NCBI RefSeq assembly: GCF_000747095.1
Contig: NZ_JQGL01000006.1
Span: 1 to 64,000, forward strand
Length of the DNA: 64,000 bases
DNA from: Sulfuricurvum sp. MLSB
GTDB lineage: Bacteria; Campylobacterota; Campylobacteria; Campylobacterales; Sulfurimonadaceae
Direction: 5' to 3'
This document shows positions 10,584 through 34,479 of this stretch, piece after piece (the first letter of the stretch is position 1; each line of letters opens with the position of its first letter). A program made the position numbers and the translations under genes. Under the pieces are notes generated by a model. It had not been told where the DNA came from. It made no database searches and was given only the letters and a program-made list of their open reading frames with translations.

Positions 10584-10668
10584 GCGGACGTGGTGAAATT
10601 GGTAGACACGCCAGACTTAGGATCTGGTGCCTCACGGTGTGAAGGTTCAAGTCCTTTCGTCCGCACCA
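10584..10668 (+). tRNA. tRNA-Leu (TAG), integration site of the island
   Basis: Class II tRNA with a long variable arm (TGCCTCACGGTGT region), acceptor GCGGACG paired with CGTCCGC, and anticodon stem CCAGA/TCTGG with loop CTTAGGA giving TAG. CCA is encoded. Bases 10612 onward, from the anticodon stem to past the 3' end, recur exactly at 34418-34479, so the 3' half present here was supplied by the island while the gene stayed intact. Last gene of the tRNA cluster. Confidence 0.95.
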
Positions 10669-10673
10669 CCCTT
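10612..10673 (+). repeat. attL: 62-bp direct repeat from tRNA-Leu 3' half
   Basis: Identical to 34418-34479 over 62 bases, beginning in the anticodon stem (CAGACTTAGG) and running five bases past CCA. The flanks differ on both sides. This is the signature of tyrosine-integrase insertion into a tRNA gene. Confidence 0.95.
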
Positions 10674-21891: not shown

Positions 21892-22158
21892 GTGACCGAA
21901 AAAGAGGTTGTTGAAAAGATGTATGAAAAACATCAAAAATGGGTGTTGGATGCCAAAGAAGCGCCCAAAGAATGGGGACGAAGTTACTCATATTTGAGCA
22001 AACTATTTGGTGGGAAGGATTCGATTCCAGACTCAATTATTTTGGAAAAGCAAATAATCCCTCCGTGGATTATGTATGGGGAAAGGCGGATGTGGAAGAT
22101 CACCGACATCGCTAATTGGATCGTAAATACAGAACTAAAAGGAGAGACAAAACAATGA
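21892..22158 (+). CDS. Small unknown protein, first gene of divergent phage-like operon
   Basis: 88 residues from a GTG at 21892, chosen because the protein-like text begins there (VTEKEVVEKMYEKHQKW) and AGAGAAA lies upstream; the track ORF start at 21697 runs through the operators and the repressor start. The text WGRSYSYLSKLFGGKDSIPDSIILEKQIIPPWIMYGERRMWKITDIANWI looks like a small winged or MerR-like DNA-binding domain of the excisionase/AlpA kind, with a C-terminal 'WKITDIANWI' helix. Not assigned with confidence. Stop overlaps the next start (ATGA). Confidence 0.6.
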   Translation: MTEKEVVEKMYEKHQKWVLDAKEAPKEWGRSYSYLSKLFGGKDSIPDSIILEKQIIPPWIMYGERRMWKITDIANWIVNTELKGETKQ

Positions 22159-22682
22159 ATGAACGTTTAAATTCATTACAACAACTAATCAAACTCAGTC
22201 AAGACGATCAGAGAAGACATCTTAACTATTTAGCAAAATGCCCAATGGAAACGAGGTTGGCACTGTTTGAGAAGCAAAAAGAGATTTTTTATTCTTTGCT
22301 GCAAAAATACAAAGGGGTCATAACAACAAGTGATATCACCTATGCTGCACTTATTTTAGCTATCGGTGTAACACGTTCCTTGGAAAAAAAACTGACGAAA
22401 AAAAGTTTTGGTGAGTTGTCGCTGGATGAAATACGTGAGCTCTCAGCATCACGTGCAGTATCATTCAAAAATACACTGACCAAGAAATCCCCTACACATG
22501 AAAAACTGATGGGATATTGGGCAATCATCCGCACACTTCGACTGGATCACATGTACAGTTACGAGCGGATAGCCCTGTATCTAAAAAAGAAACATCGCTT
22601 TTCAGTTGCACAGTCAACCATTCAAAAAAAATGGAAAGAACTCGAAGTCTCAATAACAAATCAAAAGGAAAACACCAAATGA
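22155..22682 (+). CDS. Unknown protein, second gene of the operon
   Basis: 175 residues from the ATG at 22155, which overlaps the previous stop by four bases; the track start at 22116 is inside the previous gene. Helical and basic, no signal peptide or membrane span. The last third (SYERIALYLKKKHRFSVAQSTIQKKWKELE) reads like a helix-turn-helix and suggests DNA binding. I do not recognise the family. Confidence 0.65.
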   Translation: MNERLNSLQQLIKLSQDDQRRHLNYLAKCPMETRLALFEKQKEIFYSLLQKYKGVITTSDITYAALILAIGVTRSLEKKLTKKSFGELSLDEIRELSASRAVSFKNTLTKKSPTHEKLMGYWAIIRTLRLDHMYSYERIALYLKKKHRFSVAQSTIQKKWKELEVSITNQKENTK

Positions 22683-23233
22683 GTACGTATCAGCATGTAG
22701 AAACAGCCATCGTCCCACTAGATGCACAAGAGGATTTCAAACTTTACTTAATCTCGCAACCCAACAATCCAAAAAAACCAACTTTATTGGGAATGTTTTT
22801 AACCTATAAAGATCTTTATACTTCGCCAAGCATTCAAGTGTCTAATCATATCAGATCGGCATTTCGGCTGTTTGGGAACGAAAAGCTTCGAAAAATGGAG
22901 TCAAACAAATATTTCAGTATTGTAAAACGAACTATTGAAAATGATACGTTCACATCGCTGCATTGTACATTTATTCAGGGTGAGAACGTTTATATCGATT
23001 TATTGCGTGCCTATGAGATCACACAAGCGTGGGACCATGTGCTAAGTGAATATTACTTGCGGCATCTGTACAGCACCAAAGATAAGCTGTTGGTTGTTGC
23101 ACACGGAGATGGAATCAGCAAAAGTTTTTCTTCTGAATGGAATGATTCTGACATACAGAAAAAATCTATTCCAAAAATTCCGGATACTGTAAATACATTT
23201 TTGAAAGAAATAGTGCACACGGAAAAAATTTGA
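22679..23233 (+). CDS. Unknown protein, third gene of the operon
   Basis: 184 residues from the ATG at 22679, which overlaps the previous stop (ATGA). No membrane span, signal peptide or known motif; the centre (FTSLHCTFIQGENVYIDLLRAYEITQAWDHVL) looks like a mixed alpha/beta fold. The track start at 22517 is a shadow of the preceding gene. The strict ATGA overlaps of the three genes imply a fixed stoichiometry or a shared pathway. Confidence 0.6.
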   Translation: MSTYQHVETAIVPLDAQEDFKLYLISQPNNPKKPTLLGMFLTYKDLYTSPSIQVSNHIRSAFRLFGNEKLRKMESNKYFSIVKRTIENDTFTSLHCTFIQGENVYIDLLRAYEITQAWDHVLSEYYLRHLYSTKDKLLVVAHGDGISKSFSSEWNDSDIQKKSIPKIPDTVNTFLKEIVHTEKI

Positions 23234-23604
23234 CGTTTTCATATCCGTTTGAAAACCATTTCTTTCGGCATTTTCATACGCCATTTCGCTAAACTCTCCT
23301 AATCCCCTCCATTGGGGATTGCAAGCTATATTTTTCTGCAAAATAGAAACCGAGCACTTTTAAAACCTACCGATACAAAACTCTCCGAGTAAAATCGAAT
23401 GAATTTCCATGTTACAGTTCCCTCGTTTTTATATTATGAATCTAAAAATCGATGGAGCTCAGAATGACCCAAGGGTCATCCGTACCACCGTAACCAAAAG
23501 AGCCGTGATTACTCTTTACACGTAAATAATAAATGAAGATTGACTTAACAAACCTGCCGGACGGCGGCTAAATCCGTTCACTATTTCTGTAGCGAGAAGA
23601 CCAC
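23234..23604. other. Intergenic leader before the second tyrosine-recombinase-like gene
   Basis: 371 bases without a gene. Two short perfect hairpins stand out: AATCCCC/GGGGATT (23301-23320) and ATGACCC/GGGTCAT (23464-23479), plus a G+C-rich CTGCCGGACGGCGGC patch near 23560. No clear T-run terminator. It might hold a terminator, a long 5' leader or recombinase-binding sites. Confidence 0.5.
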
Positions 23605-24528
23605 ATGCGAGGATCTGTTTATTACCAATCGGCGGAACTGATTAAAGTTATCTTTGTCGAAGGTGCCAAAAAAACAGAACGTGTCGATAAGACACATCCT
23701 CATTACCAATGCATAACTTCATATAAGACCGCCAAAGCGTACCGCGAAGTTTTCAATAATTTCTTTCACTATCTGCGTGAACATTGGAAAATCAAAGATC
23801 CATTGTTGATTACGGGTGAAATGGTCGCTTCTTATATGGAGTACAAGTCAGAATACCATGTTAGTAAGCAATATTTAGAGAAGATATCTTCAGCCATGGC
23901 CAAATTAGAAATTGCGCTAAAACGTCATACCTTGTCTAAATACGGTGAAGCAGGTGATTATGATTTTTCGGTTCGACAAAAAATTTTAGATAGTTCGCGA
24001 GACTTGAAACTGGTAGCAGATAATTATCACAACCGCACCTATAAACATCCCCACGTACTTATCGCATCACTAACACAACCAGAACATCGGATTGCAGCTA
24101 CTATTCAGCATGAAGGCGGTGCACGAATCGAAGGGGTAACACTCATCAAATCGGATCAACTGCACGGCATACGATTCGATTCTATCACCGGTACAGATAA
24201 GGGAGTTATTTTTACCAAAGAAAAAGGAGGAAAGGAAGGTGACGTACTGGTTTCAACAACTACCTACAATCGTCTTTTGCACCATTTGCAAACCAATAAA
24301 CATTTCAAAATAAATCGACAAAAATACAGTCATGATATTCGTACAACTTGCGAAAAAATAGGGATTAGTGCTGAGGGATCGCACGGGCTGAGATGGAATT
24401 TTGCGAAGCGTCGTATGATGGAATACGCCAAAGCAGGCTATACATATGAGCAGAGCCTGCAAGCAGTTTCGTGGGAAATGAAACATAATCGTGCGAGCAT
24501 TACCACTCATTATTTGGGGGGATTTTAG
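23605..24528 (+). CDS. Tyrosine recombinase-like protein
   Basis: 307 residues with the layout of a tyrosine site-specific recombinase: an N-terminal SAM-like arm domain (KTAKAYREVFNNFFHYLREHW) and a catalytic domain in which I can match box I Arg (HEGGARIEGVTL), the beta-hairpin Lys (TKEKGGKEGD), HGLR (HxxR) and a final HYL Tyr (SITTHYLGGF). Spacing is loose compared with the island integrase and the box II His/Trp position reads MKHNRAS. ATG at 23605 has a GAGAAG upstream. It could be a second integrase, a resolvase of island dimers, or a phage-derived remnant that still has its catalytic set. Confidence 0.72.
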   Translation: MRGSVYYQSAELIKVIFVEGAKKTERVDKTHPHYQCITSYKTAKAYREVFNNFFHYLREHWKIKDPLLITGEMVASYMEYKSEYHVSKQYLEKISSAMAKLEIALKRHTLSKYGEAGDYDFSVRQKILDSSRDLKLVADNYHNRTYKHPHVLIASLTQPEHRIAATIQHEGGARIEGVTLIKSDQLHGIRFDSITGTDKGVIFTKEKGGKEGDVLVSTTTYNRLLHHLQTNKHFKINRQKYSHDIRTTCEKIGISAEGSHGLRWNFAKRRMMEYAKAGYTYEQSLQAVSWEMKHNRASITTHYLGGF

Positions 24529-24534
24529 AAATAG

Positions 24535-25128
24535 TTATTTCCCAAAATTTTTAATATCCTTGGCTGCAGAAGACGCCGCATCGTTTTTTTGAGACATAAA
24601 CGCCACTTCTCTGGCTTTATCCGTAAAACTCAACGATACGAACTGAGCCCCTTGAAAATATCCAGAATCGATAATATCGAGTTTTTCGTCAATATTGGGA
24701 TCATTGTCCAATAATTCTGAAAGTGTCTGTTTAAATTGCTGAATATCGTTTTGATTATGAGTATGGCGTGATGTCAAAACAATTTTATAGATTTGCCCAT
24801 TTTTATCCAGATGAGTCTGTATCCCGTTGATAGTCCCGTTATTATTGATGGACTGATAGCTGTTTTTTATAGCTTCAGGGTGGGTATATATTTCACAATA
24901 GCCTGAATAGGCCAATGAACCGCAATCAAACCCTTTTTTCAATAGTGTTTGTTTATCCATCCCCATTATCAAATCCAGAACTTTATATTGAGTCGGTTCG
25001 ATTTTGGATGATGTTTGTTGCATATCTTTCTTTACTGTAGAATTGATATTCTTATTTTCGTGATTGTCAGAACAACCGATCATAAGTGCTGCACCCAAGA
25101 AAAGTGCAATCGATTTTGTATTGATCAT
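24535..25128 (-). CDS. Putative lipoprotein, unknown function
   Basis: 197 residues. N-terminus SIALFLGAALMIGCSDN is a clear lipobox signal (Leu/Met-Ile-Gly-Cys), so the protein is probably lipid-anchored in the periplasm. The mature part is hydrophilic, with no repeat or catalytic motif I recognise. It overlaps the upstream gene by four bases (ATGA), and is the last gene of a three-gene leftward set of exported proteins. Convergent with the recombinase-like gene, seven bases apart. A+T-rich. Confidence 0.72.
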   Translation of the reverse strand: MINTKSIALFLGAALMIGCSDNHENKNINSTVKKDMQQTSSKIEPTQYKVLDLIMGMDKQTLLKKGFDCGSLAYSGYCEIYTHPEAIKNSYQSINNNGTINGIQTHLDKNGQIYKIVLTSRHTHNQNDIQQFKQTLSELLDNDPNIDEKLDIIDSGYFQGAQFVSLSFTDKAREVAFMSQKNDAASSAAKDIKNFGK

Positions 25129-26156
25129 TGATTCGTTTCCTTTGTTTTATTATTTTTAGCACTGACCATCTGCTCAGTCATCTTAACAATATCCTTCTCC
25201 AGCAGCAATGGAGGGAGATTATCCTCAAACGTTTTATCCGCCATATTCCATCCGACAAACGAGCTGTACACTAATTTTTCAATTTCTTGATAAGAACCTA
25301 TATCTATCGGCTGGCCTTCTTTATGCGTATTTTTGGTAATTACTAGTGGATAAAATTCCAATGTTTTTTTTTCTTTACCGCTAAACGTCACATGATAGCG
25401 GATCATATCTCGCTCTTGCTGTGCCTTTGTCATAAGCCAATTTGCCATATTCAACGCCAAGCCAACCCCAGCTACTGCCATCCCTGCATTTCCGCCACCA
25501 TTTGGTGTTCCCAACTGCGCAGTCGATCCTGCACGCATCAGGTCATTACCTAAACTTGAGTTTGACCCATTGGAAGATGCTGTTTGATTCTTGACTTTTA
25601 ATGCTGAATTTTTTTGAATATACTCTTTATATTCATTCTCAGCCATACAAACATCAATACCAATTTTTATTGTCAAGTCGGGATTTTCATTTTCTTTCAC
25701 AAGTTGATAACCGCTTTCTTCAAACCCTTTTGCCAGATAGTTATGGTTATAGCATCCCCTGTAGGGATTGATAACATATCCAAGTGACTTATCACCAAAA
25801 AATAGATTGGTCGCAAGAATACTAAAGCGTCCTGAATAGGGAACATTTGTCGCTTCAATGGCGTTTCTGACTGCTATTGCGGCCACATCTCTTTCATAAT
25901 GGGCTTGAGATGCATTATCTGTAGCTGTTTGCACATCAATAACTTCCCCAAAGATTTTTGCGCTGCCAAGCTTTGCGGATTTCAGTTCACCGGTCTGAGT
26001 CAGTTTCGAAAAAAGATCAAATGCTTTATGGAATAATTCCTGAGGTGTTTTCCCTTCTTCGTACACGATTGCTAATTTTTTCCTGGGCAACTCTTCTCCA
26101 TGCAATCCTATGAGAAGTGCTGACAAAGATGAAATGAATAAGAGTTTCTTTGGCAT
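25125..26156 (-). CDS. Exported protein, unknown function
   Basis: 343 residues with a signal peptide (KKLLFISSLSALLIGLHGEE). The mature part has a conserved-looking NPYRGCYNHNYLAKGFEESGYQLV stretch, a central low-complexity Ser/Gly/Asn region (SSNGSNSSLGNDLM) and a short hydrophobic, Gly-rich GMAVAGVGLALNMANWLM segment that could be a membrane-active helix. No family recognised. Sits between two lipoprotein genes with overlapping or near-touching ends, so the three are likely one operon acting in the envelope. Confidence 0.7.
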   Translation of the reverse strand: MPKKLLFISSLSALLIGLHGEELPRKKLAIVYEEGKTPQELFHKAFDLFSKLTQTGELKSAKLGSAKIFGEVIDVQTATDNASQAHYERDVAAIAVRNAIEATNVPYSGRFSILATNLFFGDKSLGYVINPYRGCYNHNYLAKGFEESGYQLVKENENPDLTIKIGIDVCMAENEYKEYIQKNSALKVKNQTASSNGSNSSLGNDLMRAGSTAQLGTPNGGGNAGMAVAGVGLALNMANWLMTKAQQERDMIRYHVTFSGKEKKTLEFYPLVITKNTHKEGQPIDIGSYQEIEKLVYSSFVGWNMADKTFEDNLPPLLLEKDIVKMTEQMVSAKNNKTKETNQ

Positions 26157-26167
26157 AAAAGCTCTTT

Positions 26168-26704
26168 TTATTTGAATTCTGAATAGCTCGGGGCTTCTTT
26201 AGCCTCTATCATTAGCTGCTTTGATTTTAGGTATTCTATCACTTCGCTTGCATCCAATACGGCCACGGTGTCGGCAGGTTTCTCTTTATACATACGAATT
26301 GCACCCGATGAACCTTTATCGGTTACAAACATACCACAAGCATCATTTGAGAAGAGCCTTCCTGCAGCTGCTTGCAATAAAACATTTCCTGCAGCATTGT
26401 TTTGAGTGCATTTTTCTAAATATTGTTCCGGCGTAGTGATGGACATATCTTTAACGACTTTAGGAATGGACAATTCAAAGTAGCGATAACCAGAGCGAAG
26501 AGTTTCTTCTGCCGCAATTTGAAGATAGCGGGTATTAGTTGTATTAATAGAACGCGAACTTGCAAAGGTTGATGTAGGCGTTACAGACAAACCTCTTATA
26601 TTTTCTTTTGTTCCTAATCCTTTGGCTATATAAGCCTCTTTAACCGAACATCCGCTTAGCAACAAAATTCCGATAACTCCAATAGCCGATATTATTGAAT
26701 TCAT
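26168..26704 (-). CDS. Putative lipoprotein, unknown function
   Basis: 178 residues, signal with lipobox IGILLLSGCSVKEAY. Mature part contains RYLQIAAEETLRSGYRYFELSIPK and a Cys pair (EKCTQNNAAG and NDACGMF) that could form a disulphide. Not recognised; the 'AAEETLRSGYRYF' phrase is like small outer-membrane-associated lipoproteins that collect in CC0125/CC1285-type families, but I would not assign it. First gene of the three-gene exported set, divergent from a small XRE gene. Confidence 0.72.
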   Translation of the reverse strand: MNSIISAIGVIGILLLSGCSVKEAYIAKGLGTKENIRGLSVTPTSTFASSRSINTTNTRYLQIAAEETLRSGYRYFELSIPKVVKDMSITTPEQYLEKCTQNNAAGNVLLQAAAGRLFSNDACGMFVTDKGSSGAIRMYKEKPADTVAVLDASEVIEYLKSKQLMIEAKEAPSYSEFK

Positions 26705-26820: not shown

Positions 26821-27093
26821 GTGAAATTTGATTTGTCCAAAGAAGAACATCCTGACATCAAAGCGTATTATGATGCATTGACCGAACATATCAAACTGCT
26901 CCGAAAAGAACGGGGAATCAGTCAGTTAAAATTGGCCAATATTCTGGGTCACAACTCCACTTCATTTATTGCCCGGATTGAACTGCGTCAGAACAAGGCC
27001 AATTACAATCTTGCCCATCTTGTTCTTTTGGCAAAAGAATGGAGCCTGGAGGTCAAAGACCTCCTTCCTGATTACCCAGTCCTCTTCAAATAA
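26821..27093 (+). CDS. Small XRE-family helix-turn-helix regulator
   Basis: 90 residues, essentially one HTH domain: LTEHIKLLRKERGISQLKLANILGHNSTSFIARIELRQNK. Start is GTG at 26821 (no ATG is available in this frame); ribosome site weak. Divergent from the exported-protein operon and convergent with the nine-gene operon, so it could control either. Similar to antitoxin-type or element-maintenance regulators in size. Confidence 0.72.
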   Translation: MKFDLSKEEHPDIKAYYDALTEHIKLLRKERGISQLKLANILGHNSTSFIARIELRQNKANYNLAHLVLLAKEWSLEVKDLLPDYPVLFK

Positions 27094-27120: not shown

Positions 27121-27408
27121 TCATACTTTATTAAAGTGCTCTTTTTCCTCTATTCGTTTCAACGCCTTATCTACCCGTTTGTTCATGAGATGCCTCAGAT
27201 ACAGCAGCGCCAGGATCACTACCGTCTCTACGGCGATCACGACCCCTTTTTTTCCATTGATCAGATATCCCGCGTAACTCGAGGAAAAATAGGCAAGCGT
27301 ATAGATAACAACGGGATACCATTTTTTGAGGGCTGATAGAAGATACAGCCCAACGAGATACATCAGCCCAAAAAGTCCCATCGGCAGATAGAGCTCAAAC
27401 GTTTCCAT
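27121..27408 (-). CDS. Small membrane protein, ninth gene of unknown operon
   Basis: 95 residues from the ATG at 27408, overlapping the upstream gene by 14 bases. Two or three membrane spans (YLPMGLFGLMYLVGLYLLSAL, VVIYTLAYFSSSYAGYLI, GVVIAVETVVILALLYL) and a basic Lys/Arg tail. No family recognised. Track start at 27534 is inside the previous gene. Confidence 0.62.
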   Translation of the reverse strand: METFELYLPMGLFGLMYLVGLYLLSALKKWYPVVIYTLAYFSSSYAGYLINGKKGVVIAVETVVILALLYLRHLMNKRVDKALKRIEEKEHFNKV

Positions 27409-27928
27409 GATCGTCTTCTCTCTTTTCTTCAGACCGCCGGTTGCGTTTTTCGGCATAGGATTGAAAGTCGAATGTTTTACATTCCGCGCCCGTTCCAATC
27501 CTCTCCTCGATGATCCTCGCACACTCGGCGTCATCGGCCAGCTCTTCCATCAGGTGTTCAATAGAGAGCTCGATCGAGCGTTTGACGCGATAGGCGGTTT
27601 CACTATTTTCCCCGAAAGCGAGGCTGAGTTCCCTCATCGCCGCATCGGGCAGGATAAGCCTCCATGCCTCCCGGCTATATGGCACCCCTTGTAGATTCCG
27701 ATCTTCGGGAGGAATGAAAGGTTTTGATGGGGGGAAATCTTCTTGGGCAACATACTTGTAATGCTCGATCATCCGGGGATCATTGCCGGCTCTTTCCCAG
27801 CGTTCGAGTTCTTCTTGATCTTTGACATGTTTTTGCTGTACACGTACCTGATTTTCGTGATAGAACCAATAAATTACTATACCCGACGCTATGGTGAAAG
27901 CCATGATCGCAATAACATAGAGCTCCAT
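27395..27928 (-). CDS. Single-span membrane protein, eighth gene of unknown operon
   Basis: 177 residues from the ATG at 27928. One N-terminal span (ELYVIAIMAFTIASGIVIYWFY), then a soluble, acidic and helical part (VKDQEELERWERAGNDP; SIELSIEHLMEELADDAECARIIEERIG). Looks like an anchored cytoplasmic domain. Start lies just after the preceding stop at 27930. Not recognised. Confidence 0.65.
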   Translation of the reverse strand: MELYVIAIMAFTIASGIVIYWFYHENQVRVQQKHVKDQEELERWERAGNDPRMIEHYKYVAQEDFPPSKPFIPPEDRNLQGVPYSREAWRLILPDAAMRELSLAFGENSETAYRVKRSIELSIEHLMEELADDAECARIIEERIGTGAECKTFDFQSYAEKRNRRSEEKREDDHGNV

Positions 27929-27929
27929 A

Positions 27930-28343
27930 TCAGTCTCCGTTGAGACAATAGACCGGACGGATCCCTGAAGCGGCCGCCAGGGCAACAAACAGCGCGATGA
28001 GTCCCAGCAGCGTCATCGGGATATAGAGGATGCTCTGTGCTAGGCTTCCTGCCAGTGCAACAAGCGGCCGGGTGTGTTTGAAATTGTTCCGAATCTGGAC
28101 AATGAATATCCACAGACCGATGAAGAGAATAATCATCCCATTCAGCGGATCACCCTGCCAGTTGGACCTGGCCATATGGTATCCCGCATACATCGCCACA
28201 TACGAGGCGGCGTACCATCCGAAGCTGTATGTTGTAAAGAAGTGGTATTTCGCTTCCTTGTAGGTGAAGCTATTGAACCACAGCATAAACCGATAGAGTG
28301 CGATCACTGCAGCAAACGCTGCGATTATTTTTAAAATAAACAT
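27930..28343 (-). CDS. Polytopic membrane protein, seventh gene of unknown operon
   Basis: 137 residues with about four membrane spans (LKIIAAFAAVIALYRFMLWF; YAASYVAMYAGYHMA; LNGMIILFIGLWIFIVQI; ILYIPMTLLGLIALFVALAAA). No known motif. Spaced by one base or so from the next gene, indicating cotranslation. Confidence 0.65.
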   Translation of the reverse strand: MFILKIIAAFAAVIALYRFMLWFNSFTYKEAKYHFFTTYSFGWYAASYVAMYAGYHMARSNWQGDPLNGMIILFIGLWIFIVQIRNNFKHTRPLVALAGSLAQSILYIPMTLLGLIALFVALAAASGIRPVYCLNGD

Positions 28344-28352
28344 GGTTTCTCC

Positions 28353-28613
28353 TTACGTTTCATTCTTTTGGGGGCGGTACCCCTTTTTAGTTTTTTGAAG
28401 CAGAAGGATCTGTAAGTATTCTTCTGCTTGTTCCTGATTCCCGTAATAGGTTTTTATGACCCCTTTGGGGGAGATTTTGGAGGAGGATCCAAAGGTTCGG
28501 ATCACCACCCACTCCCCAAACAGAGAGGAGACAAGCTCGATGGTGTATCGGCGCTCTTTGCCTTTGACACTACGATAGAGTGTTCTCATCATCGTCGTAT
28601 TCACTCTGATCAT
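28353..28613 (-). CDS. Stand-alone WGR-like protein
   Basis: 86 residues from the ATG at 28613 (a second ATG pair at 28595 is possible). The core YTIELVSSLFGEWVVIRTFG, followed by GVIKTYYGNQEQAEEYLQILLLQKTKKGYR, matches the WGR fold (YxLxLxxxLFGxWxLxRxWGR...A...KxxKGY), except that the signature Trp-Gly-Arg reads T-F-G. WGR domains bind nucleic acids in PARPs and in some plasmid- or defence-linked proteins. Sixth gene of the operon; the only predicted nucleic-acid binder besides the RNase H-like one. Confidence 0.65.
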   Translation of the reverse strand: MIRVNTTMMRTLYRSVKGKERRYTIELVSSLFGEWVVIRTFGSSSKISPKGVIKTYYGNQEQAEEYLQILLLQKTKKGYRPQKNET

Positions 28614-28722
28614 TCTCTTGATCTTTTCTCTCAAGATACAACCCGTACAGCCCAAACAGACCGATCCATATCATGCTGCCCAGCAGAATAACTGCGGGAT
28701 TGAATACACTGTTAAATTCCAT
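28570..28722 (-). CDS. 50-residue membrane protein, fifth gene of unknown operon
   Basis: From the ATG at 28722 (GAGGAAGGA-type ribosome site upstream) it encodes one membrane helix (PAVILLGSMIWIGLFGLYGLYL) followed by a highly charged tail (RKDQENDQSEYDDDEN). It overlaps the WGR gene start. Below the usual size cut-off, but position, ribosome site and composition support it. Confidence 0.55.
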   Translation of the reverse strand: MEFNSVFNPAVILLGSMIWIGLFGLYGLYLERKDQENDQSEYDDDENTLS

Positions 28723-28733
28723 TCCTTCCTCCT

Positions 28734-29435
28734 CTATGCGCACACCAGGGCGCGGCATTCGTTTCTGGCATCCTCTATCCAGCTCTCATCGAACCGCACT
28801 TCTCTTAGAAAGTTATCCAGAGCAATCCGTTTAATCGCATGGACATTTCCGAAGCGCTCATGGAGTTTGTCTCTGAGCGTCTTTGAGCCCAGTTGTCTGA
28901 GCAGCGATAGGACCAGCTTGTTCGCGTTGTTCATCCCTTTGGGCAGCTCTTTGTAAAAAGGGGCCGCCTGGCTGATGGAGCAGAGAAACCCGTAGGTATC
29001 GCCCCGGGCAAGGGGCATGAACATCGCCACCAGCATTTGCTCGCTCAAGGAGCCAAGATGCGATTCCAGCAATGCAAGATGGGGCAGCTTCTCTTTTTTA
29101 GGCCGTGCCTGCGATGCCAGGCGGTCCACCGTTTTTAGGTATTCGCGCTTGAACCACATGAACTGGATCTTCTCGAACATCGGCGCATAAAATCCCTTTA
29201 ATGCTTCGGTATCGATGTTGATGTTGTCATAGACAAAGACACTGTTGCGATGGTTATTCAAGAGCGCATGCTCGATCGCGCAGATCAGGGCCATCTCTTC
29301 AGCCTCGTTGACTCCCGTAGCGCAGAGGCTGAGGGAGTGGGTCTGGCCGCTGGAGAGGTTTTTGATGCCGATGCCGGCATGGCCGGTATCAGGATCAAAC
29401 GACGCGTCGCTCAGATAGATGACGTTGGGCTGCAT
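28734..29435 (-). CDS. RNase H-fold protein of unknown function
   Basis: 233 residues from the ATG at 29435. The first ~80 residues match an RNase HI-like fold: strand NVIYLSDASFDPDTGHAGIGIKNL with the first acidic residue, GVNEAEEMALICAIEHAL with the Glu, and SVFVYDNINID with the next Asp. Three of the four usual catalytic acids are thus placed; the C-terminal ~150 residues are helical and unlike RNase HI. It may be an active nuclease or a binding module. Fourth gene of the operon and its only likely enzyme. Confidence 0.7.
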   Translation of the reverse strand: MQPNVIYLSDASFDPDTGHAGIGIKNLSSGQTHSLSLCATGVNEAEEMALICAIEHALLNNHRNSVFVYDNINIDTEALKGFYAPMFEKIQFMWFKREYLKTVDRLASQARPKKEKLPHLALLESHLGSLSEQMLVAMFMPLARGDTYGFLCSISQAAPFYKELPKGMNNANKLVLSLLRQLGSKTLRDKLHERFGNVHAIKRIALDNFLREVRFDESWIEDARNECRALVCA

Positions 29436-29764
29436 GGGTGTTCTCCTTTTGCGCACGCCTCAAGCAGGTGTACCTTCAATCCGAGCTCCTGAAGCTCCAG
29501 CTTCTTGAGTCGCTGTTTTTCCATCAGGATCATCGCGGTATCGAACTCCCTGACCCGGAGAAGCTCTTCGACAATCGATTCGATCCTCTCCTGGATCCTT
29601 TCGGGTAGCTCTGATGCCCCCCGTTTCATGAAACCGGTTTCAAAGATCGTGTTCCATCCCACCTTGATCATCAGGATCACCAGGATCATCGCCCCGCTCA
29701 TGAGTGCGAACACCAGAAAGATTTCAAAAAAATGGTGCAGTTGAAGCCAATCAAGAACGCGCAT
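29411..29764 (-). CDS. Membrane protein, third gene of unknown operon
   Basis: 117 residues. One N-terminal span (FFEIFLVFALMSGAMILVILMIKVGW), then a helical cytoplasmic part with coiled-coil character (LPERIQERIESIVEELLRVREFDTAMILMEKQRLKKLELQEL). Overlaps the upstream gene by 14 bases and the RNase H-like gene by ~25, so translation is closely coupled. Confidence 0.65.
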   Translation of the reverse strand: MRVLDWLQLHHFFEIFLVFALMSGAMILVILMIKVGWNTIFETGFMKRGASELPERIQERIESIVEELLRVREFDTAMILMEKQRLKKLELQELGLKVHLLEACAKGEHPCSPTSSI

Positions 29765-30272
29765 CGTTCACCTCCTGGGGATTGGTCTTTTCAGTGCTTT
29801 TAATCACTCTTTTGCCCGACCAGTAGGATAGTCCCGTTCCCGCACGTATCCCAAGACGGGCCAACAGCGACATGGCCGTCGAGAAAAGGAAAAAGATCAG
29901 CGGTTCAAACGCCATAGACGAGGGAAACTCTTTGCCCCGGACGCTGCAGAGTCCCGCATCGTTCAAGACGGTATCGCCTTTGATGAACTGTCCCTCTACA
30001 AGAATCCACCCGTTGGCCGGATCGGCGATGGTTCGTGTTCCTCTCCACAACCCGCACTCGATGCTGTGGCCTTGTTTAAACTCCTCATAAACGAACCGCT
30101 TGTTGGCCTCATCCTCAAGATTGCTCTGAAGGATCAGGGTATTCATGAAAAGAATAAGGATCCCCAGTAACGCGACAGCTGTGTTGGCGAACATAGTCAT
30201 CCCCATACCGATCATGACCGTTCCATAGAACACCCATGTGAACGGATCGCTGAAATTCAGTACCGTTTCCAT
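29751..30272 (-). CDS. Membrane protein, second gene of unknown operon
   Basis: 173 residues. Two N-terminal spans (FTWVFYGTVMIGMGMTMFAN; TAVALLGILILFMNTLIL), a central soluble stretch with two Cys (SIECGLWRG; NDAGLCSVRG) and a third span (FEPLIFFLFSTAMSLLARLGI). The central part (ADPANGWILVEGQFIKGDTV) may face the periplasm. Not recognised. Confidence 0.65.
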   Translation of the reverse strand: METVLNFSDPFTWVFYGTVMIGMGMTMFANTAVALLGILILFMNTLILQSNLEDEANKRFVYEEFKQGHSIECGLWRGTRTIADPANGWILVEGQFIKGDTVLNDAGLCSVRGKEFPSSMAFEPLIFFLFSTAMSLLARLGIRAGTGLSYWSGKRVIKSTEKTNPQEVNDARS

Positions 30273-30273
30273 C

Positions 30274-30681
30274 CTAACACTCCTTTATTATGGTCTGTTC
30301 GATCACTTCAAGACGCTCATGGATCCGATACTGCTCGTGCTTACACAGATAATGGCTGCGGATGTCACGCTTCATGATCCCACATACGGTGTACCAGGTA
30401 AAGCCCAAAAAGCTTTTTTTGACGATCAGCTCCTCAGGATGGCAGCACAAAAGCTTTTCATAATCCCACCCGCTCTCTTTATGCTCCGTATAAAGGGTCT
30501 GTTCCCCCTCGATCTCGTAGCGATTCTTCTCGGCATCGTAGTGCAATATGGCGTTGCGGAATATCTTGTCCTGTTCATGGCACTCCACAAAGTAAAATCT
30601 CTCCCCCCTGGGATTGATCAGTATCTCTTTACGCGCTTCATCGATCAGTAGATCGATCTCTTTATACATAACCTCGCTCAT
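30274..30681 (-). CDS. Unknown soluble protein, first gene of nine-gene operon
   Basis: 135 residues, ATG at 30681 with GGAGA six bases upstream. Soluble, with four Cys including CCHPEE and CKHEQYR, which with nearby His could bind a metal, and a likely beta-rich N-terminal half (PRGERFYFVECHEQDKIF). No family recognised. One base separates its stop from the next gene. Confidence 0.65.
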   Translation of the reverse strand: MSEVMYKEIDLLIDEARKEILINPRGERFYFVECHEQDKIFRNAILHYDAEKNRYEIEGEQTLYTEHKESGWDYEKLLCCHPEELIVKKSFLGFTWYTVCGIMKRDIRSHYLCKHEQYRIHERLEVIEQTIIKEC

Positions 30682-31193: not shown

Positions 31194-31775
31194 ATGCTGA
31201 TAGGATATATGCGCGTTTCGACTGACGGTGATCGGCAGAGTACAGATCTTCAACGTGATGCATTGATAAGTGCCGGGGTGGATGAGCGGCATATATTTGA
31301 AGACAAGGCTTCCGGATCCAAAGATGATCGTGCCGGGTTGGCACAGGCACTGGAATATTTTAAATCAGGAGACACCCTTGTCGTTTGGAAACTGGATCGT
31401 CTTGGGCGATCACTCCCCCATCTGATCGAAATCGTCAATCAGCTCAAATCCAGGGGAGTCGGATTCAAGTCTCTCACTGAGGGAATGGATACCTCCAGCC
31501 CTTCGGGTGAACTTCTATTTCATGTTTTCGGTGCATTGGCGCAGTTTGAGCGTTCATTGATCCAGGAACGGGTCAATGCCGGATTGGCAGCTGCGAAGAA
31601 GCGGGGGCGAATCGGTGGACGACCGCGAGCGATCCCTCAAGAGAAGATGGATGCTATTTTAGAGGCATTAAACAACGGAATGTCGAAAGCAGCGGTGTGT
31701 CGAACATTTGAAGTAAAGCGCTCCACATTAATTGATACCCTTAATCGAAAATCTGCAGAAAAATTCGCATATTAA
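31194..31775 (+). CDS. Serine recombinase (resolvase/DNA-invertase family)
   Basis: 193 residues from the ATG at 31194, with GAGG upstream. Catalytic N-terminal domain: MLIGYMRVSTDGDRQSTDLQ carries the nucleophilic Ser, and WKLDRLGRSLPHL the conserved Asp-Arg...Arg; linker helix region SPSGELLFHVFGALAQFERSLIQERV; C-terminal helix-turn-helix GGRPRAIPQEKMDAILEALNNGMSKAAVCRTFEVKRSTLIDTL. All key residues are present. Size fits small Pin/Tn3-type enzymes. No invertible segment is obvious next to it; it may resolve multimers of the excised island. Confidence 0.92.
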   Translation: MLIGYMRVSTDGDRQSTDLQRDALISAGVDERHIFEDKASGSKDDRAGLAQALEYFKSGDTLVVWKLDRLGRSLPHLIEIVNQLKSRGVGFKSLTEGMDTSSPSGELLFHVFGALAQFERSLIQERVNAGLAAAKKRGRIGGRPRAIPQEKMDAILEALNNGMSKAAVCRTFEVKRSTLIDTLNRKSAEKFAY

Positions 31776-33019: not shown

Positions 33020-34168
33020 TTAAGAAAATAGCTTCATTGTCATGTCATGTCTAATATTGGGAATCAGATGGGCGTATCGCATCGTCATTTCGATATGTTT
33101 GTGCCCGAGTTGTTCTTTGATCTGCAAAATATCCAGCCCGGCTTCTGCAAGCCAACTCGCATGAGTATGCCGCAGTGAATGGGCAGTGATTTTGTATTTC
33201 GTATCTCGCTTCTTATTTCCAGGGATGACGATTTCTACCGCCGTAGCAAAATAGTCCGGCATTCTCAAGATGATCCCACCATCGCTGTTGTTGATAACGT
33301 TTTCATTGACCCTGTTTTCATAGAGATAATCGATCGTTTCGCGAAGGATCTCATTCATTGCGATATGGCGCTCATTGCCATTTTTGGTCTTTTTGAAAAA
33401 AATCGTATTGTTGGCGAAATTGACATCAGCCCATTTCAACCGGGTATCGATACCTGTTTTGTTTTTCTGAGATGAGGCACCCGTAATTTCACTGAACCGT
33501 GCGCCCGTAAAAAGGAGCAGCACCGTCAAATGATACATCAAAGGGTGTGCCGATTTCAAAATCTCTAAAATTTTTTTGGCCTGGTCTTTCGTTAGATAAC
33601 CTTGCCGCTTGTTATCTATGTCCGGCATCTTGACTTTTCCTTCACCCATAGGATTGGCAAAGTTTTTGAGTATGTTATGTTTGATCGCATAATTAATGAT
33701 CGTTCGGATGAGTGTCATCTGATGCTTGACCGTCTGCGGCTCCAGCCCTTTTGCTGTAAGATCCTGCTTGAATTTTTCGAAATCCAAAGAGGTCAAATCT
33801 TTCACACTCTTATGCCCGAAAACAGGCTTGATGTGCTTCTTATAATTCTTTTCGTCCATTAGATATGACTTCTTATTTGCCTTGGCATAGCTGTAAAATT
33901 CTTCCCAAATAGTGTCAAATTTTAGTTTTGAAGTTCTGCCCGCTTTAATCGTCGGTTCTTCATCATGCTGAAGTTTATACTTCATTTCAATCAGTTTTGC
34001 ATAGGCATCTTTTACGGTGAAATCAGAAATTCTTGTTTTTTTACCTACAAGTACTTTAACCGGCTTACCGTGATCATCACGATAATTAATGTAAAAGGAT
34101 ATATCGCCATTTTTTAGCTCATTGACCCAGACACCCTCATATCGTCCACCAACTGCCTTCAATGCCAT
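33020..34168 (-). CDS. int: Island integrase, tyrosine recombinase family
   Basis: 382 residues from the ATG at 34168; the track start 15 codons upstream is less likely. N-terminal arm-binding domain (SFYINYRDDHGKPVKVLVGKKT), core-binding SAM-like domain (~80-170), then the catalytic domain with Arg in TGARFSEI, Lys in KKTKNGNERHI, HSLRHTH (HxxR), LGHKHIEMT (box II His) and the Tyr nucleophile in MRYAHL. Complete. It sits 250 bases from attR and reads into the island; it almost certainly catalysed insertion into tRNA-Leu. It lies at the opposite end from the intact tRNA. Confidence 0.95.
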   Translation of the reverse strand: MALKAVGGRYEGVWVNELKNGDISFYINYRDDHGKPVKVLVGKKTRISDFTVKDAYAKLIEMKYKLQHDEEPTIKAGRTSKLKFDTIWEEFYSYAKANKKSYLMDEKNYKKHIKPVFGHKSVKDLTSLDFEKFKQDLTAKGLEPQTVKHQMTLIRTIINYAIKHNILKNFANPMGEGKVKMPDIDNKRQGYLTKDQAKKILEILKSAHPLMYHLTVLLLFTGARFSEITGASSQKNKTGIDTRLKWADVNFANNTIFFKKTKNGNERHIAMNEILRETIDYLYENRVNENVINNSDGGIILRMPDYFATAVEIVIPGNKKRDTKYKITAHSLRHTHASWLAEAGLDILQIKEQLGHKHIEMTMRYAHLIPNIRHDMTMKLFS

Positions 34169-34273
34169 GTTATAAGTCCCCTGTTTTGAAAGAAAATTAC
34201 TTTTTATCCACAATAGATCATTTTTTCGTTGAAAAAGTATAACAAAGTTTTCGTAATAGGAAGTGGCTTTTTT

Positions 34274-34417: not shown

Positions 34418-34479
34418 CAGACTTAGGATCTGGTGCCTCACGGTGTGAAGGTTCAAGTCCTTTCGTCCGCACCACCCTT
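34418..34479 (+). repeat. attR: tRNA-Leu 3' fragment (62-bp direct repeat)
   Basis: Exact copy of 10612-10673. It lacks the 5' half of the tRNA so it is not a gene. It is followed by a T-rich stretch (TTCTCTTTTTTTATTT) that was probably the original downstream end of the tRNA operon before insertion. Confidence 0.95.

Follow-up and report, generated by a model that had tools for sequence, protein, structure and literature searches.

Sulfuricurvum are free-living relatives of Campylobacter and Helicobacter, and their large plasmids and islands carry an operon of small proteins yet no recognizable transfer genes. What does such an operon do for the elements that carry it? We address this question at one locus of Sulfuricurvum sp. 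MLSB, within a window of 64,000 nucleotides (the whole stretch of DNA analyzed, from contig NZ_JQGL01000006.1). ORF calling on the minus strand of 27121-30681 gives nine ORFs, g1 to g9:

30274..30681, minus strand: g1, 135 aa soluble beta-rich protein, family not recognized (AlphaFold2)
29751..30272, minus strand: g2, 173 aa inner-membrane protein with a C-GW-C domain (hydropathy, alignment)
29946..30080, minus strand: C-GW-C domain of g2, F65-C109, with C73 and C109 invariant (alignment)
29411..29764, minus strand: g3, 117 aa single-span membrane protein (hydropathy; relative in locus L029)
28734..29435, minus strand: g4, 233 aa RNase H-like protein (PF13456 RVT_3, E 5e-5)
28570..28722, minus strand: g5, 50 aa single-span membrane protein (hydropathy)
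28353..28592, minus strand: g6, 79 aa WGR-domain protein (PF05406, E 9e-7)
27930..28343, minus strand: g7, 137 aa membrane protein with ~3 spans (hydropathy)
27395..27928, minus strand: g8, 177 aa, N-terminal span and soluble helical region (hydropathy; low-confidence model)
27121..27408, minus strand: g9, 95 aa two-span membrane protein (hydropathy)

Gene starts were re-set by ATG and Shine-Dalgarno context to 30681, 30272, 29764, 29435, 28722, 28592, 28343, 27928, and 27408 for g1 to g9, respectively; this context displaced a TTG start at 27988 for g8 and a start at 27534 for g9. Junctions from g1 to g9 are, in order, +1, −14, −25, +11, −23, +9, +1, and −14 bases. The topology of operon proteins is taken from hydropathy, which predicts membrane helices in six of the nine proteins (g2, g3, g5, g7, g8, and g9) and none in g1, g4, and g6. 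In a profile search of the nine proteins, g1-g3, g5, and g7-g9 match nothing above a curated cut-off, and the membrane proteins are recognized by no profile library searched. The outline drawn by a sequence-only reading holds: the nine packed leftward genes are real (junctions of −25 to +11 bases, order kept in ~20 loci), six encode predicted membrane proteins, two encode nucleic-acid-type proteins (g4 and g6, both above cut-off), and the profile search recognized no ATPase or relaxase among the nine.

The block is confirmed as a conserved operon that is carried by a mobile island and encodes small unrecognized membrane proteins along with two nucleic-acid-type proteins. Family HMMs show the colinear order to be retained in ~20 Sulfuricurvum operons; linkage of the genes is preserved on other islands and plasmids, and no match to a known conjugation or plasmid-maintenance operon emerged. 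Across the Sulfuricurvum loci listed, in which genes were called with a simple caller, WGR is present in all, g2 in nearly all, g1 in most, and g4 in about two thirds, counts that do not represent independent events because many loci are related by descent. The position of g3 is taken in most loci by another small membrane protein, c7. Eleven of 41 genomes of the genus have g1, including plasmids pSULKU02 and pSULKU03, where partition and replication genes are close to the operon and a divergent HTH gene adjoins it. Values of dN/dS are 0.14-0.38 for seven genes compared between the window operon and the related operon L027 and 0.04-0.43 in other operon pairs; judged by these ratios, every gene tested is under purifying selection. 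Synonymous divergence is uneven between neighboring genes (for L025 versus L034, 0.01 in c7 and 1.41 in g8), and such jumps along operons indicate recombination within them, as in swapped cassettes. Many copies are down to two or three genes, and the minimal operons L100 and L103 keep g1, g2, and WGR without g4. One copy (L036:10487-12352) is decaying, with an in-frame loss of most of the g4 RNase H region and a broken g1. Neither the operon nor its g1 and g2 families turned up in our literature search.

The two nucleic-acid-type proteins both pass the gathering score of their families (g4, 23.6 bits against PF13456 with a cut-off of 21.6; g6, 29.3 bits against PF05406 with a cut-off of 22). 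In g4, D10, E44/E46/E47, D70, and D104 are invariant in 12 aligned sequences and account for all four acidic active-site residues; RNase H-like nuclease activity is predicted for g4. It shares with RNase HI and RVT_3 proteins the DEDD acidic residues and differs from them in a C-terminal region of ~125 residues, which matches no assigned type, and in its location in a membrane-protein operon. Relatives of g4 also occur in further genera of the family. In the set of papers searched, none joins a WGR domain, RNase H, and a plasmid.

The first protein, g1, is soluble and strongly conserved, and its AlphaFold2 model is confident and beta-rich (pLDDT 87.6). Neither the PDB nor a viral library provides a structural match to this fold (best E 0.16 and 0.027, respectively), sequence relatives are absent from the PDB search, and no relatives of g1 or g4 were found in viral contigs. 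Metal binding by Cys and His residues, which had been proposed for g1, is not supported: Cys113 is invariant in the alignment, whereas the other candidate ligands Cys34, His67, Cys79, and His81 are missing in some wider relatives. Among g1 relatives at L101:7173-8196, L102:7840-9421, and L097:10635-11315, those of L101 and L102 are followed directly by a zeta-like P-loop kinase; a Phd-like N-terminal part is present in one g1.

The C-GW-C domain, found in g2 and its paralogue X, is small and combines a Gly-Trp motif with a pair of invariant cysteines. Positive residues in X favor a periplasmic location of the domain, though the signal for g2 itself in a simple topology score is weak. The domain is present in 65 of 397 Campylobacterota genomes and 23 of 68 genera. 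Among 44 C-GW-C loci examined, all other than the chromosomal type, one particular small HTH gene is ≤1.7 kb away in 25, and int1, a recombinase-like gene described below, is ≤7 kb away in 12, across three families. A tie to mobile elements is seen in Sulfuricurvum, Sulfurimonas, and Arcobacter-like genomes, labels that for relatives rest on named records or kinship. In Sulfurimonas, the companions of g1 are other C-GW-C proteins and Phd/YefM-type proteins, joined at some loci by a NYN nuclease. In L234, an Arcobacter-like conjugative element, a C-GW-C protein is near VirB-like genes, and in the tra operon of L148 one is located between a TrwB/TraD coupling protein (E 1e-58) and a TrwC relaxase (E 9e-58). 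The latter tra region (L148:2409-14056) also has an S26 peptidase. Proximity to coupling proteins was read off the matches listed for the phylum, among which a C-GW-C protein is near a coupling protein in two loci only. A chromosomal C-GW-C protein of ~130 aa is present in L195:5944-6348 and in L196-L198, and adjoins NO-reductase-like genes in L196-L198. Because of this relative, C-GW-C is not specific to conjugation, and the domain alone does not give function. A role for C-GW-C as a general type IV secretion part was rejected on the same grounds and because most coupling-protein loci listed lack it.

Downstream of the operon are the following genes:

26821..27093, plus strand: convergent Cro/C1-type HTH regulator (HTH_19 and HTH_3 below cut-off; close relative in the same position on pSULKU01)
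26168..26704, minus strand: m1, lipoprotein related to the TraT-adjoining lipoprotein of pSULKU01 (E 2e-10; NF047637 below cut-off)
25125..26156, minus strand: m2, secreted 343 aa protein, family not recognized, not TraT by sequence
24535..25128, minus strand: m3, 197 aa predicted lipoprotein (sequence prediction)

A convergent HTH gene followed by secreted or lipoprotein genes is found in the window and in L033, L035, L036, L099, and L153; operons of the pSULKU02/03 type are without lipoprotein neighbors. On pSULKU01, a reduced operon is followed by the convergent HTH, a true TraT (L050:1889-2653; PF05818, E 6e-79; ~45% identical to F-like TraT), and an m1-type lipoprotein, and the annotated parts read show no conjugation genes. 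The S. kujiense plasmid TraT forms a separate TraT lineage (PMC11733297). PF05818 has no match in the window neighborhood, its match being confined to pSULKU01, and m2 was rejected as a TraT as it lacks this match and any relation that could be found.

The operon is within a 23.8-kb island in tRNA-Leu(UAG) that is bordered by exact 62-bp repeats:

10612..10673, plus strand: left 62-bp direct repeat, 3′ end of tRNA-Leu (repeat comparison)
34418..34479, plus strand: right 62-bp direct repeat, exact copy (repeat comparison)
33020..34213, minus strand: int2, tyrosine integrase adjoining the right repeat, 84-96% identical in other tRNA-Leu islands
21919..24528, plus strand: element module of small gene c53, c12, c54, and int1, common to other islands
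23605-24528, plus strand: int1, tyrosine-recombinase-like, weakly XerA-like (E 3e-4, below cut-off)
31194..31775, plus strand: serine resolvase bordering the cassette slot (PF00239; 92-96% identical in the G086 and G094 islands)

An integrase together with att repeats in tRNA-Leu identifies the island (10612-34479) as an integrative element, and its cargo comprises a type I restriction system, Fic, two tyrosine recombinases, and the resolvase. Genomes G037, G086, and G094 have int2-type islands at the same tRNA-Leu site. Sister islands share a frame of c53, int1, and resolvase in varying degree, with c53 alone in G037. The cassette slot, from int1 to the resolvase, is filled by the nine genes in the window, by g1-g2-WGR in G094, and by unrelated small membrane genes in G086. 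The G037 island encodes a coupling-protein ATPase (PF02534, E 2e-11) and a CloDF13-like MobC-type relaxase (NF041423, E 1e-9, below cut-off). These are arranged in that order at L224:12756-14969, as a CloDF13-like mobilization pair. With the same integrase in this sister, and with the 62-bp tRNA-Leu repeats, the island of the window appears to belong to a family of mobilizable elements. It resembles CloDF13-type MobB/MobC elements through this sister but differs in having c12-c54-int1 instead, with no relaxase recognized among the proteins scanned.

Of the three functions that had been offered for the operon, exclusion at the surface or at entry fits best. We tentatively favor a role as an exclusion-type envelope module that limits entry of competing DNA, a possibility somewhat short of an even chance. 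Neighboring TraT and lipoprotein genes, a g2 relative in a tra operon, and carriers of a mobilizable type are consistent with this role as far as sequence comparison goes, as are the differing small-membrane-protein sets in the cassette slot and the uneven synonymous divergence along operons. There is also precedent in Sfx, a functional surface-exclusion lipoprotein encoded on mobilizable elements that have no transfer machinery (PMC11493245). In such a module, g2 (paralogue X elsewhere) and the other small inner-membrane proteins would be located at the cytoplasmic membrane, perhaps as a complex, with the two-cysteine C-GW-C domain probably facing the periplasm. The neighboring lipoproteins, or TraT, would cover the outer membrane, and together the two sets would reduce DNA entry from competing elements. 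Cytosolic g4 and g6 may act on nucleic acid that still enters, for example RNA-DNA hybrids or primers on incoming single-stranded DNA. In a more elaborate form, which we regard as a long shot, the small-protein inner-membrane complex would recognize arriving DNA and pass it to the RNase H-like and WGR pair, which would destroy the RNA primers for conversion of the single strand, with simpler or richer versions across Campylobacterota mobile elements. Against this role weigh the missing relation to TraS and to named exclusion families, the difference between m2 and TraT, the chromosomal C-GW-C protein, the scarcity of C-GW-C proteins near the coupling-protein loci listed, and the pSULKU02/03-type operons without lipoprotein neighbors. 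The pressure for exclusion is not obvious because coupling proteins (PF02534) are rare in the genus, occurring in 3 of 41 genomes.

The same gene content allows other functions. A nuclease-like and a WGR protein accompanying membrane proteins would suit phage defense, with the membrane proteins sensing infection and g4 and g6 cutting nucleic acid, and defense genes are at hand, as the island has its type I restriction system and Fic and pSULKU01 has Qat. But PADLOC returns no match for the nine proteins or m2, the minimal operons L100 and L103 dispense with g4, and nothing ties the operon to phage; beyond the nuclease-like gene there is nothing positive for defense, which we consider rather unlikely. 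Proteins of the element could instead tune or report the state of the host membrane and take no action on incoming DNA, as might be expected from a set consisting mostly of small membrane proteins and lipoproteins and from the occurrence of C-GW-C in a chromosomal protein next to respiratory NO-reductase genes. Such envelope adaptation leaves unexplained both the RNase H-like and WGR genes and the mobile-element tie in Sulfuricurvum, Sulfurimonas, and Arcobacter-like genomes, and is improbable. Retention of the element in the cell by membrane-tethered antitoxin-like pieces is suggested by Sulfurimonas counterparts of g8 with Phd/YefM antitoxin domains (best E 4e-8), by the g1 with a Phd-like N-terminus, and by the location of g1 before a zeta-like kinase in L101/L102. 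This addiction function is quite improbable for the window, where no toxin or antitoxin is recognized among the operon proteins and g8, considered as ParD, RelB, or Phd, has a low-confidence model and no antitoxin profile match even at E 10.

The least probable reading, and a very doubtful one, is that the operon contributes to a machine of unknown type for DNA transfer or uptake. Replication, partition, or integrase genes do adjoin the operon on large plasmids and islands without a type IV secretion system, but many copies are cut to two or three genes, and DNA uptake as a complete machine is disfavored because no ATPase is recognized in the operon, nor is a relaxase. The PF02534 coupling ATPase is missing from the genome of the window (G000) and from each of the 11 genomes that have g1, and is encoded in 3 of 30 others in the genus, numbers too few to call a difference. 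With no coupling protein in these 11 genomes, the operon is therefore not part of, or accessory to, a resident conjugation system. A conjugation or secretion operon was rejected given the lack of coupling proteins in carrier genomes and of a recognized ATPase or relaxase in the operon.

If the operon is an exclusion module, it is unlike those described. Profile searches assign none of its proteins to a named exclusion family. The Sfx factor of IncC plasmids and IMEs (PMC11493245) is likewise found on mobilizable elements without transfer machinery and likewise involves a lipoprotein, but it is a single lipoprotein acting against TraN, with no inner-membrane array, RNase H-like gene, or WGR gene, and no sequence link to it is shown. 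The F TraS/TraT pair combines a small inner-membrane protein with an outer-membrane lipoprotein near traD, and on pSULKU01 a true TraT is likewise next to the reduced operon. The window, however, has no tra operon; its m2 shows no relation to TraT, and g2 none to F-type TraS (hhalign of alignment A6, probability 0.6%). Control of DNA entry by the operon would account for a barrier to gene flow in the phylum and add a type of exclusion or defense built from unnamed families. Members of the g1 and C-GW-C families serve as markers of such elements in many genomes and offer a way to detect further ones. Barely matched by profiles, int1 recurs with arrays of small membrane proteins in three Campylobacterota families.
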